42,407 nt of DNA, from positions 1 to 42,407 of the IMG/VR virus record IMGVR_UViG_3300025110_000032; one strand, written 5' to 3'. Below the pieces are notes generated by a model. The model had not been told where the DNA came from. It saw only the letters and a list, made by a program, of their open reading frames with translations, and did no database searches. Origin of the DNA: a virus. Below, piece after piece: positions 2,865 through 42,309 of this stretch (positions are counted from its first letter, which is position 1; every line of letters starts with the position of its first letter). Made by a program: the position numbers and the translations under genes.

Positions 2865-3719
2865 TTACGAAGATATTTGGTTGTGTAATTGTCCAGTTAA
2901 TTTATAGCAAACGGAATTCTCGATTTTGTCTTGCAGTCCGACCAACTCATTAGGCATAGGTGTTTTACTCATTACTCTAAAAGTAGCAACTATGGGGCAT
3001 CTCCCATAAGCAGCGCCAAACTTTTCAACGATCTTTGCCGTTACAGGCATCTCTCCCGTGAGAATATCTTGTACATCATTAAGGTCATCCTGTTTGATAC
3101 CCTTCGCGTAATCTTGATCAGTAAATAATTGCCATACCTCTCTTGTGTTTAAGACCTCGTACTTACGTATAGCTTGAAAATGTTCTGCCAATAAAGAACC
3201 GAATTTCTTGAGTTCTTTCGCTGTAGGAACAGGTGGTGGAGTAACAACCTTCTCTTCTTCTTCTGATTCTTGCTTCTGGATATTCTTCTGACTAGCAGAC
3301 AATGCTGCAAGTATCCGAGGTAGATCTTTTGTTTCGCTTGTGCTCCTAATCCAACTCTCTACATCCTTAATAGTAAGAGTGTTTTTGTACTCACCAGTAT
3401 CGTAATAATCAAAAAGAGCATCAGGTGTTATTCCTAATAATCCAGCTAAGTTTCTTGTAATTCTTGTCCGTACATCAAAAGGATTAACTTCTCCTCTTAA
3501 ATATTTAGTAACAGTACCAATCGATACTCCCATTCTATCTCCAAGTTTTCTTTGTGAGATATCATGCATAACCATTGCTTGGTTAAGAGACTCAATAAAT
3601 CTTTGAACCTCTTTTGAGTGGTCTGGATTTATAAAGTTCGCATATTTATTTTTTGCTTTAGATATGCGTTCTTCTTGTTTATCCCCTTGGGGTGATTTTT
3701 TTACTTTTTTAGATTGCAT
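2865..3719 (-). CDS. XRE/Cro-CI family transcriptional repressor
   Basis: A helix-turn-helix of the XRE type spans roughly residues 45-95 (ISQRKLGDRMGVSIGTVTKY), preceded by a very basic N-terminus. A linker with an acidic/proline part (EEEEKVVTPPPVP) leads to a C-terminal region that may contain a second, weaker HTH-like unit (DDLNDVQDILTGEMPVTAKI). No Ser-Lys LexA-type protease motif is seen, so RecA-stimulated cleavage is not supported. It is divergent to the primase gene across a 405-nt spacer with repeated TGTAC motifs, so it probably controls early or lysogeny genes. With the integrase it argues for a temperate life style. Confidence 0.75.
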   Translation of the reverse strand: MQSKKVKKSPQGDKQEERISKAKNKYANFINPDHSKEVQRFIESLNQAMVMHDISQRKLGDRMGVSIGTVTKYLRGEVNPFDVRTRITRNLAGLLGITPDALFDYYDTGEYKNTLTIKDVESWIRSTSETKDLPRILAALSASQKNIQKQESEEEEKVVTPPPVPTAKELKKFGSLLAEHFQAIRKYEVLNTREVWQLFTDQDYAKGIKQDDLNDVQDILTGEMPVTAKIVEKFGAAYGRCPIVATFRVMSKTPMPNELVGLQDKIENSVCYKLTGQLHNQISS

Positions 3720-19885: not shown

Positions 19886-20122
19886 ATGGCAGAAGCTTGG
19901 ATAAGTAAAACGCAAGTATGCAAACATTTCGGAATTTCCGCGAAAACTCTAGAAAGGCGGTTTTACCCGATTGCATCCAAGGGAACTCATTACATCACGA
20001 AAGACCCTTTAAATGATGATTCTCAAAAGATCTGGAAATTATCAGAGGTTGAGCGTTTAGTTCGTCAATCGAGTGGCTCATTGCAAAGGCGCTTAGCTAA
20101 AAAGCAAGCGGCGGCAAGATGA
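19886..20122 (+). CDS. excisionase-like / MerR-type HTH protein, 78 aa
   Basis: Winged-helix DNA-binding start: AWISKTQVCKHFGISAKTLE, then a basic recognition part (RRFYPIASKGTHYITKDP) and KIWKLSEVERLVR. This resembles Xis/AlpA-like or MerR-like phage regulators that take part in excision or control. Position near the integrase supports an excision or regulatory role. The C-terminus is basic (LQRRLAKKQAAAR). A small gene overlaps its stop (ATGA). Confidence 0.6.
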   Translation: MAEAWISKTQVCKHFGISAKTLERRFYPIASKGTHYITKDPLNDDSQKIWKLSEVERLVRQSSGSLQRRLAKKQAAAR

Positions 20123-21054: not shown

Positions 21055-22392
21055 TTAGGCTGCATACGGGTGTTGATGGTTTCTGATCATCGCCTTTTTC
21101 TCATCTTCTTTATCTAGCCAAAGCAGATATTCTTGCTTGTGAACAGCTAAGCCATGCCCCATCGCTTCAGCGCATTCTTCGATTGTCTTCAATCTCTTAA
21201 AGGCTGGATCAGTATGCATAAAGACTGCCCATGTATGTCGAAGGTCGTATGGTCGAACCTCTATTTTCTTCCTTGACCTTTTGACTGGAGATTTAACTAG
21301 TAGTGGAGGCATTGAGCGTTCTGCTCTCCCTTTCTTTCCGTAAGAGGTAGGTCCAGTTTTTCCAAATCTTCCTTTCAGTGTTCCGTATCTAATGTTTTGA
21401 TGTTTTATTCCTAAAGTGTTGCGAGTTAAATATTCCCCTAGCTCGTCGTTGTTATCCCCTATCCCATCAAAATAAATATCCTCATCATCAATCGAATAAG
21501 TTCGAGTGAGTGGATTTGCAATGCTTTTGATACGTGGCTTTCTTTTCCAGCGTAAATAAAACTGATGCTCATCAAAATTTTTAAATAATCCATATCTCTC
21601 ATCCCACTCAGCAAATGCAGGCCAGACTATTCGATCTACGTTTGACTTAGTAAGTCGCCTCGGTACCTCAATAAAAAGATTTCCCAGCTTTTTGATGTAC
21701 CACAGTTCATGATTTCTAAGGCCGTAACACATCATCATTGCAATAGCCCAGCACTGCCATGGAAACTCTTTGTAGTGCTTGTCTAAATATTTTTCTGCTT
21801 CCTCTCTCGAAACGATTCCTCGAACTTGTCTCAAATCTTGCTTATCTAAATTCCTAGTCAATTCTTTACGTTGTTCTGCATGAAGATCTCGAATTGCTCG
21901 ATACTGTTCATCTGTAAACCAAGCAGGATTTCCATAGAACTTTTGAAGTTGTCTAATAAATTCCAATCGGGTCTGGAAAGGTTTTGTTCCACATTGTTTT
22001 TCTTTTAACCATTCTTTAATTGCTTTATGAGATTGTTTGATTTGTTTTTCTTTTAATTGTTTTAATAAAGAAAAATAATTTTTATTCGTAGATCCTTTAT
22101 TTCTCTTTTGTAAAAATCCTTTAATTGCTGCTTCGTCTTTTTGCCAAATATTAAGTTCTTCTTCTTGAATATCATCATCACTCCAAACACCTTGATCAAT
22201 AATTTTGATTTTGTTGCAAACCCATTCACAATCTTGATCGCTATCTATCCTTCTTGGTTTGAGCGAAATTCTTGTGTTTCGATTTCTATTATCTCTCACA
22301 TAAATATATTTACTGTCTCCACGAGTAAGCATGCTCCAGCGGTAATTGCATTCCTCTAAAAAAGCAATGTACTTTTTGATGGGTAAATTCAT
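21055..22392 (-). CDS. int: tyrosine-type site-specific integrase
   Basis: 445 aa with the catalytic set of tyrosine recombinases: Arg 226 in CYGLRNHEL, then YDLRHTW (Arg 385, with Tyr at the usual first His), MGHG (His 413) and the nucleophile in EYL (Tyr 422). The N-terminal part contains the arm-binding and core-binding domains (long basic helices). It sits right next to the att site with its start 7 nt from the first arm-type repeat. It integrates the phage into a host tRNA-Met gene and removes it with help from an excisionase. Confidence 0.92.
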   Translation of the reverse strand: MNLPIKKYIAFLEECNYRWSMLTRGDSKYIYVRDNRNRNTRISLKPRRIDSDQDCEWVCNKIKIIDQGVWSDDDIQEEELNIWQKDEAAIKGFLQKRNKGSTNKNYFSLLKQLKEKQIKQSHKAIKEWLKEKQCGTKPFQTRLEFIRQLQKFYGNPAWFTDEQYRAIRDLHAEQRKELTRNLDKQDLRQVRGIVSREEAEKYLDKHYKEFPWQCWAIAMMMCYGLRNHELWYIKKLGNLFIEVPRRLTKSNVDRIVWPAFAEWDERYGLFKNFDEHQFYLRWKRKPRIKSIANPLTRTYSIDDEDIYFDGIGDNNDELGEYLTRNTLGIKHQNIRYGTLKGRFGKTGPTSYGKKGRAERSMPPLLVKSPVKRSRKKIEVRPYDLRHTWAVFMHTDPAFKRLKTIEECAEAMGHGLAVHKQEYLLWLDKEDEKKAMIRNHQHPYAA

Positions 22393-22575
22393 ATCACGCG
22401 GCCCAGTTTTAGAGAATGAGCCCTACGGACTGGGCCAAAATCTGGGCAATTAGTGGGCCAACGGCCCAGTTTCTTGCAAAAAGTGGGCCAAAAAAGTCCC
22501 ATCAAGTACGACCTGAACTCATGAAGGCTTTGATCCATTTACATAAAATATTCCTTCAGATCCCTTTATAGCACT

Positions 22576-22602
22576 AAAAAAAGCCCAGCGCTAACTGGGC
22601 TT
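22576..22602 (-). terminator. strong rho-independent terminator downstream of the tRNA-like core
   Basis: Perfect 8-bp stem AAGCCCAG/CTGGGCTT (22581-22602) with loop CGCTAA, followed on the minus strand by seven T. In an integrated phage it would end tRNA transcription. In free DNA it would stop the virion operon before the integrase gene. Confidence 0.85.
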
Positions 22603-22608
22603 AATATT

Positions 22609-22657
22609 TGGTGGCGGGGGGAAGATTTGAACTTCCGACCTTCGGGTTATGAGCCCT
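22609..22657 (-). other. 3' part of tRNA-Met(CAU): integration core
   Basis: On the minus strand the sequence runs from an anticodon arm (GGGCTCATAACCC, anticodon CAU at 22649-22651) through a perfect T arm (GGAAG-TTCAAAT-CTTCC) to CCCCGCC-A-CCA. The 5' half (acceptor 5' strand and D arm) is absent and the sequence left of the anticodon stem does not pair. This is the usual form of a phage att core that restores a host tRNA after integration. It is not a functional tRNA on its own. Confidence 0.85.
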
Positions 22658-22776
22658 ATGGTTGCGGGGCAAGAACCCAGTCCACCACTCGCTACGAAAA
22701 ACGACTGGGCCGTAAAAGTGGGCCAAACTGAGACTGTAACAATTCATCGGATGCATAGTCCGAAGTTTAACTTATT

Positions 22777-22944
22777 TCAGGTTGGATACCAAGCAGGCTG
22801 AAGCATACCTCTATCGTCATCATCGTCATCATCGTTCCGAGTGTCATAGCCCAGAATAAATGTCACTAATGCCACGCAAATTAGGGGCAAAAACGGGAAG
22901 ATTATGGCTAATTGAAAAGCCTCTGGATCGCTGAAAAAGTTCAT
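22777..22944 (-). CDS. small membrane protein with Asp-rich tail, 55 aa
   Basis: Hydrophobic helix (FQLAIIFPFLPLICVALVTF) then GYDTRN, seven Asp in a row, and RGMLQPAWYPT. Single-pass membrane protein, probably with the acidic tail in the cytoplasm. It is the last gene of the minus-strand late operon before the att site. Its ATG overlaps the stop of the upstream small basic ORF (ATGA). Family not recognised; a holin or photosystem-linked role cannot be told apart. Confidence 0.55.
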   Translation of the reverse strand: MNFFSDPEAFQLAIIFPFLPLICVALVTFILGYDTRNDDDDDDDRGMLQPAWYPT

Positions 22945-23083: not shown

Positions 23084-23854
23084 TTAACTTACGACTTGTG
23101 CTAATAATTCAGCAGCCGCTAATTTAGCTGCTTCATCTTCATCAATTGGAGCTGGCATTCGCTCTGCTTCGTTATCACTTAAAGCATCTGCTAATAGATA
23201 CAAACCACTAGTACCACCCAGTAAAGGCACGATATATTTTGCATATTTTCCTGCCATTTTTATACCCCCTTTAGACACAGGAGTTGGTGTTGTATCTTTT
23301 ACTTGCTGAAGCTTGGCCTGCAAATCTGGGCCAGCAGGTGTGTGTTGTTCAGGAGTAGTAATTTTTCCAATAATTCCACTGGCGTAAGTCTTTGCTTCTT
23401 CCTGACTTAGTCCTAATTTATTGACTCCATATACAAACGCATTATCAAAAACTTCATCAACTGTTTTTCCTACGCCCTTTTGATCTTTAAGAATATTTGA
23501 TAGGAATAGTTCTTCATCAGATAGTGACTGTTTGGGAAATTTTTGATAGAACTCTTCCTTACTTAATTGATTAACTTTTTTAGGAGTTACGTCATCAGTG
23601 TTAATTCTTCCCTGCATTTCATCTTCACTGACACCTGCCCGATCTGCTAATGCTTTGATCTCGGCCTGCTCAATTGCTTGATACATTTTTGGCCCAGTCA
23701 TTTCCTGCAATTTGTCTATATCTCTAGCTGCTTTACTCACTACACTTCTTGCAGTCACATCTCCGAGCTGAGCCGCTCTCATTATTCCTTCACCCGCACC
23801 TTGGGATTGCATTAACGAATCCAGCGCGGCCAAAATTTTATCTACGTCATTCAT
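23084..23854 (-). CDS. late-operon hypothetical protein, 256 aa
   Basis: Mostly helical and acidic (MNDVDKILAALDSLMQSQGA; GKTVDEVFDNAFVYG), with a hydrophobic segment near the C-terminus (YIVPLLGGTSGLYLLADALS) that may insert in a membrane. The composition fits an internal virion or ejection protein. One nt separates it from the upstream gene at 23856. Family not recognised. Confidence 0.55.
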   Translation of the reverse strand: MNDVDKILAALDSLMQSQGAGEGIMRAAQLGDVTARSVVSKAARDIDKLQEMTGPKMYQAIEQAEIKALADRAGVSEDEMQGRINTDDVTPKKVNQLSKEEFYQKFPKQSLSDEELFLSNILKDQKGVGKTVDEVFDNAFVYGVNKLGLSQEEAKTYASGIIGKITTPEQHTPAGPDLQAKLQQVKDTTPTPVSKGGIKMAGKYAKYIVPLLGGTSGLYLLADALSDNEAERMPAPIDEDEAAKLAAAELLAQVVS

Positions 23855-34710: not shown

Positions 34711-36129
34711 CTAAGGAATGATTATTGGAGCGGTGTTTGACCCTTCTTTTACTACTTCAATCATCGGGTAACTTACACCTCCAATTGTTACCGTGCTTTC
34801 GAATTGTTGTGTCGTTGAGTTGAAAATTCTGATCTCTTGCGTACCTCTTTTACACCACCAATCATTTTGTCTACACCAGCTCGCTTCTGGTTCTTCGTGG
34901 TCGTTCCAGAGCATTGGCCTGATGTCAGTCCTGATATTATTTCTTACGTCTGTACCAGGGAACAGTTCTAAACCTACGACTTCTGCTAATGCTAAAGCGT
35001 ATCTATCGTAGTTAACTCGATGTCTTGCATTGTATTCGTCATACACTTCATCACTAAATTCCCTTTCCATGCTTGAGTCTGTCAACAATCCACTAATGTT
35101 GTCACCGTAATATTGAGTCGGGAAATCGTTTGGTTCATACCACGGAATACCGCATTCCCATCTCATCGCATGCATGTGTTTACATTCGCGACGTTGGTCA
35201 ATTCGACTTTGCAAAGAACGCCACTGCCTGTAATAGCCAGCACCTTGTCTTTCCCAAGCAGCTCGAACAGTTCTACTGGCGTTTGGTAATGGGAACATAT
35301 CTTGATCTACTTCACCTTTTGGAAATTCAAGGTTTGCCAATGCACCACCTAGATGATCAGGACAGCAGCAAAACATCTTCGTTGAAGAGCAAAGATGACG
35401 AGTTCCATCCGTCTTCCAGATATTTGGAGCAGATGGATTGTAATCAAGTTTTTTCCAATAAATTGTATTGTTGTACTTAACTCGTCCATACGCTTTTGAG
35501 AGATCAAAAACCAAAGTCAGTGATCCTGAATTCGCAGCAATTAAAGTTAAAGCAACACTTCCTTCTGGTTTAGTGACAACGTCATCTGGATAATTAGGTC
35601 CAGATGCTGTGTCTTCAAATTGATCACCGATAAAAATAGAAAAAATACCAACTTGAGATGCAGTTAATACTCCGCTGACGTTATAAGTCAACGTATGATT
35701 TGCAGGATCAGGATCACTTGTATTCGTTGATATTTGCGACGATGCCAAAGCACTGGGAAGGATGATACTTCCTCTCGTTCTTTGTCCTACGTACCAAGTT
35801 CTCTCAGGACTAGTCTCACTTGGGAACATTGTGACAATGTCCTTCGATATGCCGCTAACAGCACCTGTTGTGAATCGACTATTACTGTATATCGATAAAT
35901 CATCCCAGCTTCTACCCGTACCAAAGTAATAGGCTTGACCTAGCTGCCATCTCTTGTAATCACTTTGACGATTATACGACTCAAGAATTGTAGGGAACTG
36001 AGCTGTTCCATAAAGACCTAATCCTTTACCTTTACTCGGGTATAAACCTTTTGCTTTGTTTAATCCAATTCCTTTTGTAACAGGTTGAAGCCCGAAACCT
36101 GTTCCTAGGTTCCCGAGACCTTTACCCAT
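34711..36129 (-). CDS. virion structural protein, 472 aa
   Basis: The N-terminus has Gly/Lys repeats (GKGLGNLGTGFG; GIGLNKAKGLYPSKGKG). The core is aromatic (SDYKRWQLGQAYYFGTGRSW) and the second half has several Cys (MFCCCPDHLGG; RRECKHMHAMRWECG; SWCRQNDWWCKRG) that may form disulfides or a metal site. The ATG overlaps the last codon of the DUF4214 gene (position 36129). No named family, but position and size fit a tail component. Confidence 0.6.
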   Translation of the reverse strand: MGKGLGNLGTGFGLQPVTKGIGLNKAKGLYPSKGKGLGLYGTAQFPTILESYNRQSDYKRWQLGQAYYFGTGRSWDDLSIYSNSRFTTGAVSGISKDIVTMFPSETSPERTWYVGQRTRGSIILPSALASSQISTNTSDPDPANHTLTYNVSGVLTASQVGIFSIFIGDQFEDTASGPNYPDDVVTKPEGSVALTLIAANSGSLTLVFDLSKAYGRVKYNNTIYWKKLDYNPSAPNIWKTDGTRHLCSSTKMFCCCPDHLGGALANLEFPKGEVDQDMFPLPNASRTVRAAWERQGAGYYRQWRSLQSRIDQRRECKHMHAMRWECGIPWYEPNDFPTQYYGDNISGLLTDSSMEREFSDEVYDEYNARHRVNYDRYALALAEVVGLELFPGTDVRNNIRTDIRPMLWNDHEEPEASWCRQNDWWCKRGTQEIRIFNSTTQQFESTVTIGGVSYPMIEVVKEGSNTAPIIIP

Positions 36130-37334
36130 TATCTAAAACTACTTGATGGATCGAAGTAAGTACTACCTCGCTCTTCTCCAGATCTTAATCCTGCTTTTGC
36201 ATATGGTCTGTCCTCTCTCACTCTTGGACCAGCAGTGATTCTGCTTCTTTTCCTTGAGCGATCAGAGGTTGCAGTTGCTCCTGAAGTTAGATCACCTCTT
36301 CTTCTCCCTGGGAAGCTTCCGACACTGAACCCCCTTGTCAACTGTGATGTCTCGTCAGCACGTTGAGCATTGATATAAGAATCTGCTTCTCTTCTTGCGT
36401 CGTCGTAATCAGATTGTAGTTGTTCATATTTTTCTTTATTCTCATTGAGTGCATCGTCGTACTCAATTTGAGTACCGCCGTCATCTGAATCGTCTGGATC
36501 TGGATCAGGATCTGGACCTGGGCCTGGACCTGGACCTGGGCCTGGACCTGGACCTGGGATTCCTACGCAATTCCCTGCGGCATTTTTCTGTGTACCAACA
36601 GGGCACAGATCGTCATCATTGTCAGAGCCAGTATTGCAATTAGAACCATCCCAACTACCGCCAGACTGAGCACATGCATACTCATCGCTTCGTCTGATAT
36701 TTGCCAGTACATCCTCCCTAGTCTGACCTCCTTTGATATCTTTTAACCAATAATCTCTACCCTCGTCTCCTAGTTCACGATAAAGCTCATCTTGATAAAC
36801 ATCTCGTAACCATTTCTCGTTACTGAGCTTGATATTTGATTCAACTTCTTCACGAGTGGCACCTCTTCCTAAGTCTCCTAGCCAATATTCTCGACCTTCA
36901 TCTCCAAGATCACGATTTAAAACTGTTTGATAAGTACTCTCTAACCACTCCTCATCATTTTGACCAGCACCTTCTGTGTCATTAATATTTTGATATTCAT
37001 TACTACGTCTGAAATTGTCTACAACTTCTTGCTGCGTTTGTGCCCCACTATTGATTTGTTCAGCCCAGTAATTAGCTCCTGCGGTGTCCGGCTCTCGATC
37101 TAATTCAATCTCGTATGTATCTTCAATAAATTGCCGGGTTTCTTCTTCCTTGTCTTCTTTGATTTGTTTTGCCTCGTCAGAAGCATCAAACAATTCTGCA
37201 ACTCGATCTACTGACGTTTTCCCAGAATCTATTTCTGCTTGCCAATAAGCCTTACCTGCCGCGTCAGGTGCTCTACCAAATTTCTCTTGGTAAAGCTGAT
37301 CTAAATATGCGCCTGTATCAGCAAGTGATGCCAT
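36129..37334 (-). CDS. virion protein with four DUF4214 repeats, 401 aa
   Basis: Four DUF4214 units lie in the first 220 residues, e.g. LYQEKFGRAPDAAGKAYWQA, YEIELDREPDTAGANYWAEQ, YQTVLNRDLGDEGREYWLGD and YQDELYRELGDEGRDYWLKD. Then come a Cys part (CPVGTQKNAAGNC), a long Gly-Pro repeat (about residues 260-280), a helical part and an Arg/Ser-rich end. DUF4214 occurs in phycobilisome-linker-like and surface proteins and may mediate protein assembly. The repeated domain links it with the proteins at 10066 and 10756. Confidence 0.75.
   Translation of the reverse strand: MASLADTGAYLDQLYQEKFGRAPDAAGKAYWQAEIDSGKTSVDRVAELFDASDEAKQIKEDKEEETRQFIEDTYEIELDREPDTAGANYWAEQINSGAQTQQEVVDNFRRSNEYQNINDTEGAGQNDEEWLESTYQTVLNRDLGDEGREYWLGDLGRGATREEVESNIKLSNEKWLRDVYQDELYRELGDEGRDYWLKDIKGGQTREDVLANIRRSDEYACAQSGGSWDGSNCNTGSDNDDDLCPVGTQKNAAGNCVGIPGPGPGPGPGPGPGPDPDPDPDDSDDGGTQIEYDDALNENKEKYEQLQSDYDDARREADSYINAQRADETSQLTRGFSVGSFPGRRRGDLTSGATATSDRSRKRSRITAGPRVREDRPYAKAGLRSGEERGSTYFDPSSSFR
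36494..36558 (-). repeat. short tandem repeat coding for Gly-Pro and Asp-Pro runs
   Basis: Units of six bases (GGTCCA/GGCCCA on the coding strand) repeat about ten times, giving GPGPGP then DPDPDP. This kind of tract is prone to length change by slippage, which would vary the linker length. Confidence 0.7.
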
Positions 37335-40918: not shown

Positions 40919-42309
40919 TCAATATACGAATGAGTAAGCAACGGTTATGAAGTCCTTATTAAGAATTTCAAAACCAGCAAAGAGACTCCAAATCATAATG
41001 ATGAATCTTGAAAAATCATCATTGTTATTAAGAAGAATCTGTGCGTTGTTACCACCAATACCTACACCAACTGCCTGTGGTCCGAAGAACAACATTGGAG
41101 CAATTGTATAGTTAGCAGCACCAGCAGCGGCAACAGTTACTGTCGCGTTGATGGTTTTCTCAGGTAGGTTGGTTGATTCGAACCATCTTACGCCCTCGAA
41201 CAAAAATCCCGTCGGCATGACAGGCTGTCCGGCAACGAAGCCAGCTTGTCCATAAGCTGGACCCATACCTTGGAAGAAGTTCGCATTAGGAGCCTCGGAT
41301 GGGTTCATGGGGTTAACCATGCCATTACCGGCATACCTTGCGATCTCTCTGAATGCGTCGTTCTGGCGAAGATGCATCATTGCTGTTGGATCAGCAATAC
41401 ATCTGTAGTAGCCATCGCTGAACGTAGGTACGTTCCGCTTACGCATATCCTTGACGACCTGAAGCAGGTCAGTCTTTACGTCGAACTTAGCTGAAACGCC
41501 TGCAGCGTATGTGAAAACAGGGTTACCTGCTGCTTTTGCAGCTCCACCAGGGAAGTAATAGCCACCCTGACTTGAAGATGAAAGACCGTTAGCCTCTGCT
41601 TTAAATAGTTCGTCTGCAAATACTCTATCTCTCCAACGTCTGTAGTCATCTAGAAGGGTAAGACTACCTATGCTCTGATGAAAAACGTTGAGATTACCAG
41701 TGTCTAATAAAAGACGCTGTGCTGTTAAGAGAGTCTCACGTGCAACCTTGAATGTTGAAGGAGTAGTTGGAGCTGCTGGATCAGCAGGACCGGTGTACTC
41801 TTTTAGGTTGACGAGGACTTTGTCCTTAACAATATTTCTACTTGAAGCCGTGCCAAGAGTCTGATCAGCAGTACGCTCTCTGGAATCCTTATTACCAGGA
41901 TTACCCCAGAAGCGATATCTGTCTAACTGAACAGTTTGACCAGGTTGTTTCGAACAAAAGTTGACGATGTAGCTCTTTATCTACATCCACAAGATTAAGG
42001 ACTCTTGTGATCGGACTATATCTTCACCCTTTAGCAGGGGTTGGGCGCTCGTGGACGAATTACCGAGTTTCCTCTCGTCGTCTAGTCTCTGAACCTTCCA
42101 GATTGTCGTCTGGCTTGGCTGCTGATTAACCTTCTTTTCAGATCCGGTCTTCCAGCAATTCACCCAATTTTTCAAACAACTTACGTTGTATGGACTCCAT
42201 TGAAGTCGTGAACAACCACAGGCTCTACAGCCATCTCGATTATATAACCGGGATGCGGGCGGTAGAGTTCGGCCCCGAGTAGTTTTGGAAAATCATTATC
42301 AATCCACAT
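40919..42309 (-). CDS. major capsid protein, N4gp56-like, split by a group I intron
   Basis: Exon 1 (42203-42309) starts at ATG 42307-42309 with GGAG 11 nt upstream and encodes MWIDNDFPKLLGAELYRPHP and ends with HDF. Exon 2 (40919-41954) continues SKQPGQTVQLDRYRFWGNPG. Joined length is 1143 nt, 380 aa. The C-terminal part (KTDLLQVVKDMRKRNVPTFS, then DGYYRCIADPTAMMHL) follows the N4gp56-type capsid pattern. A standard caller would report only the last 175 aa from ATG 41446. In frame but upstream of exon 1 is a stop, so the start is firm unless another intron lies there. Highly abundant head shell subunit. Confidence 0.8.
41955..42202 (-). ncRNA. group I self-splicing intron in the capsid gene, about 248 nt
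   Basis: On the minus strand the core elements appear in order: P4 5' strand AATTGCTGGAA, P4 3' strand with AATCAGCAGCCAAG, P7 5' strand GGTTCAGAGACTAGAC, P8 region, and P7 3' strand AAGATATAGTCC. P9 (CACAAGA/TCTTGTG) and P9.1 (ATGTAG/CTACAT) hairpins follow. P1 forms between exon end GACTT and intron GAGTC, with the expected U-G pair at the 5' splice site. The intron ends in G at 41955. The splice restores the capsid frame. No homing endonuclease lies inside. Confidence 0.88.

Follow-up and report, generated by a model that had tools for sequence, protein, structure and literature searches.

Prophages have been reported missing from isolates of marine picocyanobacteria, whose phages may or may not lysogenise. 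T7-like cyanophages integrate without stable lysogeny (PMC8776855), so that an integrase and an attP alone do not prove a phage 'temperate'. For phage P-SS2 (NC_013021) a putative attP has been proposed, corresponding to the same tRNA-Met as that treated here and to its ansA locus (PMC2784084). In mycobacteriophages of clusters K and F (CrimD, Pixie and Tweety), pairs of arm sites flank a tRNA or tmRNA core, a terminator separates the core from the arms, and phages with a common attB can have different arm words (PMC3203893). These precedents reduce novelty, since this kind of attP is already known, and with P-SS2 on record the idea that such a system would be unprecedented in marine picocyanobacterial phages has to be given up.

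We analysed a 42,407-nt stretch of viral DNA (IMG/VR record IMGVR_UViG_3300025110_000032, positions 1 to 42,407; hereafter the window). Upstream of its integrase lies what is very probably the intact attP of a tailed Prochlorococcus phage of the S-EIV1 lineage, which the adjoining integrase would recombine with the host's initiator-type tRNA-Met gene. The original prediction placed seven copies of A[CG]TGGGCC[AG] around a tRNA-Met core beside the integrase, and all were found: a pattern scan of the whole window for ASTGGGCCR located seven at 22399-22725, plus an eighth, unrelated copy at 23690, whereas dinucleotide shuffles of the whole window averaged 0.40 copies and did not exceed 3. The core (22609-22656, minus strand; minus-strand reading GGGCTCATAACCCGAAGGTCGGAAGTTCAAATCTTCCCCCCGCCACCA) is, as predicted, the 3' part of a tRNA-Met(CAU), running from the anticodon stem to CCA and carrying initiator features, and its length is 48 nt instead of the predicted 49. 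ARAGORN detected no complete tRNA in the window, as expected for an attP. An intrinsic-terminator-like hairpin follows the core (22581-22602, minus strand), placed to end the restored tRNA gene, and a hairpin after the tRNA is also present in most host tRNA-Met genes.

Five of the arm words lie between the core and the integrase, in mixed orientation, and two lie beyond the core. Counted from the middle of the anticodon, the P sites are at about -58 (22704-22712, plus strand) and -71 (22717-22725, plus), and the P' sites at about +164 (22482-22490, plus), +185 (22462-22470, minus, inverted), +194 (22452-22460, plus), +217 (22429-22437, plus) and +248 (22399-22407, minus, inverted). The last of these precedes the integrase ATG by 6 nt, so that the integrase may be autoregulatory. 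A core identical to the host site, with arm repeats to either side of it, is the layout of a lambda-type attP. The anticodon loop is a frequent crossover place of tyrosine integrases; considering this general habit, and because identity between phage and host begins at the anticodon stem, crossover is predicted in a 7-bp overlap region formed by the loop CTCATAA between GGG and CCC (22647-22653, minus strand). Two further features were observed in the surroundings. Thirteen nucleotides among the P' arms nearly repeat the anticodon region (22416-22428 and 22649-22661; ATGAGCCCTACGG and ATGAGCCCTATGG), and this near copy is altered in the related contig L003. The minus strand at 22777-22944 encodes a protein of 55 aa that combines a membrane-like segment with a tail rich in Asp (DDDDDDDDRGMLQPAWYPT); its matches to phrog_7843 and phrog_905 are weak, and L003, L004, L028 and L029 have kept it immediately outside the P arm.

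Searching genomes for the exact 48-nt core returned 22 contigs, every one titled Prochlorococcus, and in all 22 ARAGORN found a complete 77-nt tRNA-Met(CAT) at the position of the core. The host gene reads CGCGGGG...TCGGG-CTCATAA-CCCGA...CCCCGCC-ACCA, with a C1:C72 mismatch and three G:C pairs (GGG:CCC) adjoining the anticodon loop, a combination which we take to mark it as the initiator. A variant T-arm stem (GCAAG/CTTGC for GGAAG/CTTCC) is shared by L004, L028, L029 and one host genome, G031. The expectation that the core would be recovered at tRNA-Met genes of picocyanobacteria was therefore borne out, and neither of the two observations named beforehand as contrary to it (host genes beside an arm together with the full tRNA; absence of the core from picocyanobacterial tRNA genes) appeared.

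The adjoining gene (21055-22392, minus strand) encodes a protein of 445 aa which, from alignments and a structure model, is identified as a tyrosine recombinase. R226, K249, R385, H413 and Y422 are invariant in eight sequences (the window integrase and seven relatives), and in all eight a tyrosine, Tyr382, stands where the second catalytic histidine, that of the HxxR motif, is usual. This position varies among tyrosine recombinases, and a tyrosine there does not exclude membership of the family. The model (mean pLDDT 74.7, pTM 0.49; some of the catalytic part falls below 70) opens with an N-terminal H-E-E-E-H unit, followed by a helical and then a catalytic domain, which points to an arm-binding, a core-binding and a catalytic domain. 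Its top Foldseek match is Cre (E 7e-4); with VIA-align, XerA, Tn1549 Int, Cre and lambda Int score Z 10-11, and the alignment with lambda Int structures (Z about 10) covers residues 1-432 of the model. Overall rmsd values are large, so the relative placement of domains is not reliable; the catalytic domains by themselves superpose at 3.6-4.2 A. No match to the integrase was found in Pfam, PHROGs and NCBIfam, nor among 50,697 phage records, and a sequence-only search of the PDB gave nothing useful. Judged from its modelled fold and most of the catalytic residues, the protein is a lambda-Int-like tyrosine recombinase.

The split versions of the site that the original prediction called for were found in relatives. 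In Prochlorococcus AG-424-E20 (L019) an asparaginase-like gene and a complete tRNA-Met are followed by an integrase 59% identical to that of the window, with a TGCCCC pair at +162/+175; on sequence this arrangement is attL-like, and the asparaginase agrees with the tRNA-Met and ansA locus reported for P-SS2. Beyond the L019 integrase the genes have no similarity to the window phage or to other host flanks and belong to no Pfam family, and its short contig carries no phage structural genes. In G447 a distance of 14.7 kb separates a complete tRNA from a partial repeat (CTGATAACCCGAAGG...), words of the GTGTAACA type are present at either end, and judging by these sequences it is a 14.7-kb island bounded by attL and attR. 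More distant integrases, about 28-31% identical where measured, adjoin tRNA-Met in other Cyanobiaceae; within one genus an integrase match occurs in 14 of 266 genomes, beside an initiator-type tRNA in 12 of the 14. Concerning the capsid, no homologue was found in 400 sampled Cyanobiaceae genomes, which are often incomplete, nor in the 22 core-bearing genomes, with a working positive control; thus no prophage of the S-EIV1-type lineage was seen.

The assignment of the phage is based on its major capsid protein (40919-41980, minus strand; open frame of 353 aa; phrog_1357), which is 69% identical to that of S-EIV1, and on the structural genes neighbouring it, which follow the S-EIV1 order. For a further protein of the window, relatives were found in 424 phage records, almost all from cyanophages. 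The capsid frame has 353 open codons without an ATG near the start and most relatives match only from residue 3, so translation may begin further upstream or at a shifted position. Between 24845 and 33323 (minus strand) lie several tail-fibre-like genes, whose DUF7483, laminin-G-like and shared repeat domains suggest a variable host-recognition module, and adjoining them is a 401-aa protein with four DUF4214 repeats (36129-37334, minus). A capsid scan of one collection gave at least 598 capsid-bearing stretches; among 45 capsid contigs checked, many of them fragments, the integrase was present in one (G048, 85 kb), so the integrase-bearing branch looks like a minority. Regarding accessory genes, a 78-aa helix-turn-helix protein (19886-20122, plus) is a weak candidate excisionase (phrog_66, E 0.006; Xis_Gifsy, E 0.004), and a similar ORF is found near the integrase in G087, G048 and the island G447. 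To speak of a complete att system, as the original prediction did, is thus an overstatement, since such a system would also require a directionality factor, for which there is at most this weak candidate, and demonstrated recombination. A helix-turn-helix regulator, possibly a repressor, is encoded at 2865-3719 (minus; phrog_8, phrog_3 and HTH_3), and its structure model (pLDDT 44) is uninformative.

Five related contigs (L027, L032, L030, L028 and G048) likewise carry the site unsplit and flanked to either side by homologues of window genes; in L029 such homologues lie on one side only, since that contig ends. As phage genes flank the site to left and right, in the window and in these five contigs, we conclude from gene context that the window attP is unsplit and comes from unintegrated DNA. 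The suggestion of a free or circular form is in this way upheld for the unintegrated state and not for the circle, as neither the window nor G048 has a terminal repeat and the window is not classed as closed in IMG/VR. Gene orders in G048 (integrase, capsid, portal-like, terminase-like) and in G087 (portal-like, terminase-like, helicase, integrase) suggest a circular gene order, and summing their distances gives a probable genome of about 84 kb, of which the window would be about half. G087 (IMGVR_UViG_2716884763_000001, 56,206 bases) begins with a stop codon and stops at the ATG of the integrase; as both ends thus fall on gene boundaries and the record takes its name from an IMG genome number, it may represent a provirus trimmed out of a cellular genome.

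Other explanations of the locus were considered. Its metagenomic origin could suggest a chimaeric assembly joining a host tRNA fragment to phage DNA, but the same arrangement recurs, with phage genes on both sides, in five other contigs, which are 79-99% identical or have diverged further, and it is at the anticodon stem, not at a gene border, that the core starts; the probability of this explanation, already refuted by the independent contigs, is negligible. That the element is a genomic island or tycheposon-like, and not a phage, is suggested by related integrases beside tRNA-Met in many Prochlorococcus genomes, one of them bounding the 14.7-kb island, and by the presence of tRNA-Met among reported tycheposon sites (PMC10872708). 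However, a tycheposon is a cargo element without virion genes of its own, while the window has capsid and tail-fibre genes and structural synteny with S-EIV1, and a relative carries terminase- and portal-like genes, which makes an island very improbable.

More weight must be given to the possibility that integrase and attP work and that integration may be a transient side reaction of a lytic phage, not leading to stable lysogeny. S-TIP37 integrates and yet no lysogens form (PMC8776855), and the capsid search, in which the positive control worked, revealed no capsid-bearing prophage in the sampled Cyanobiaceae genomes. On the other hand, the window has the helix-turn-helix regulator and the weak Xis candidate, whereas T7-like cyanophages are reported to be without repressor homologues, and G087, ending exactly at gene boundaries, could be a trimmed provirus. 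On balance we consider a transient reaction a real possibility, given a little less than even credence. Stable lysogeny is consequently less certain than integration, because T7-like cyanophages integrate without lysogens and no capsid homologue was found in the sampled host genomes.

Returning to a working attP as the preferred reading, its support at sequence level comes from the words, the identity of the core, the unsplit context, the fold, most of the catalytic residues, the arm geometry and the attL and attR forms in relatives, and the points against it are Tyr382 in place of the usual histidine, the missing capsid prophage, the lack of structural genes in L019 and the window not being closed. 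In the mechanism that we propose, the integrase would contact the seven arm words through its N-terminal domain and the anticodon-stem core through its core-binding and catalytic domains, and strand exchange with the host tRNA-Met gene would take place in the anticodon loop. Because the phage would bring a terminator along with the 3' part of the tRNA, the host gene would stay whole after integration; the products would be an attL with the complete tRNA, the P' arms and int, and an attR with the P arms and a partial tRNA repeat. Both this restoration of the tRNA and the lifestyle of the phage are inferred.

When the related elements are compared, each repeated word is absent, or nearly so, from the other elements: GGCCCA in the window and L003, CGGGGC in L004, TGGACA in L028, CGGACA in L029, ATTCCC in G048, ATCAAC in L048, GTTACA in G447 and GTCAAC in G350. 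Words were picked as the commonest 6-mers, and the L004 word used for positions was picked by eye. The upstream pair at -58/-71 in the window corresponds to -58/-73 in L004 and G048, -58/-72 in L028, -59/-71 in L048, -58/-70 in G447 and -57/-69 in G350, and fits in part in L029 (-59/-82) and P-SS2 (-72 only). For eight elements, leaving out the window and L003, 14 of 16 expected upstream positions are occupied, a result reached in 0 of 200,000 draws of uniform random positions, with tolerances set after the window was seen and with some elements of common ancestry. Position tests on single elements are weak for several of them (L004, p 0.08; L048; P-SS2; G447), and only the joint upstream test is strong. 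Downstream, phage sites recur near +165, +178, +195, +218 and +246, and several islands have a 12-nt pair near +168 to +184; no clear arm words stand out in P-SS2, in G031 or in several of the attL-only islands. In L028, L029, L048 and L140 the interval separating the P arms from the core holds a further conserved stretch, (G)TCATACCAA or TTATACCAA, at about 40-50 nt upstream of the core; it is absent from the window and is possibly the site of an accessory protein.

N-terminal domains are less conserved than catalytic ones (window against L004: 47% and 71% identity, respectively), and more similar N-termini go with more similar words (L004/L019, 56%; L028/L029, 51%), a correlation in few sequences. 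We tentatively put forward, as a proposal that we ourselves find somewhat doubtful, that integrases of phages and islands directed at the Prochlorococcus initiator-type tRNA-Met may keep the arm geometry while the word is swapped at all sites together with the N-terminal domain. If true, this swap would keep rival elements at one chromosomal site off each other's attL, attR and attP. In the open literature, most subscription papers being outside it, we found no description of arm-site structure in a marine cyanophage, nor of phages and host islands that share one geometry while their words are exchanged.

The attP ties an S-EIV1-type ocean phage lineage to one exact host gene, and through this link lysogeny becomes testable at the predicted attL and attR junctions. 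Moreover, related sites with constant spacing and different words offer a natural data set on how the arm specificity of integrases evolves. Among the known systems, S-EIV1 (KJ410740, a Synechococcus phage) shares the capsid and the order of neighbouring structural genes, but no homologue of the window integrase was found in it. Another tyrosine recombinase family of marine picocyanobacteria missed by PHROGs (PMC10187409) is described near tRNA-Phe/Cys, targets other than that of the window. Lambda has the same three-domain Int fold and arm repeats on both sides of the core, but its Int is only 11-13% identical, and the window differs in Tyr382 at the usual second histidine and in its tRNA core. 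The mycobacteriophages have an unrelated host, and a constant geometry across different words did not appear in the passages of PMC3203893 consulted. In P-SS2 a similar core (94-96% over 46-47 nt) precedes the integrase gp101 by about 200 bp, but gp101 is only 23% identical to the window integrase and its gene surroundings are different; the P-SS2 arm words are only weakly visible here, and the passages of PMC2784084 consulted yielded no description of them. Compared with all these systems, what appears to be new is that arm words differ wholly between related elements while the upstream pair stays near -58/-71 in nearly all of them.
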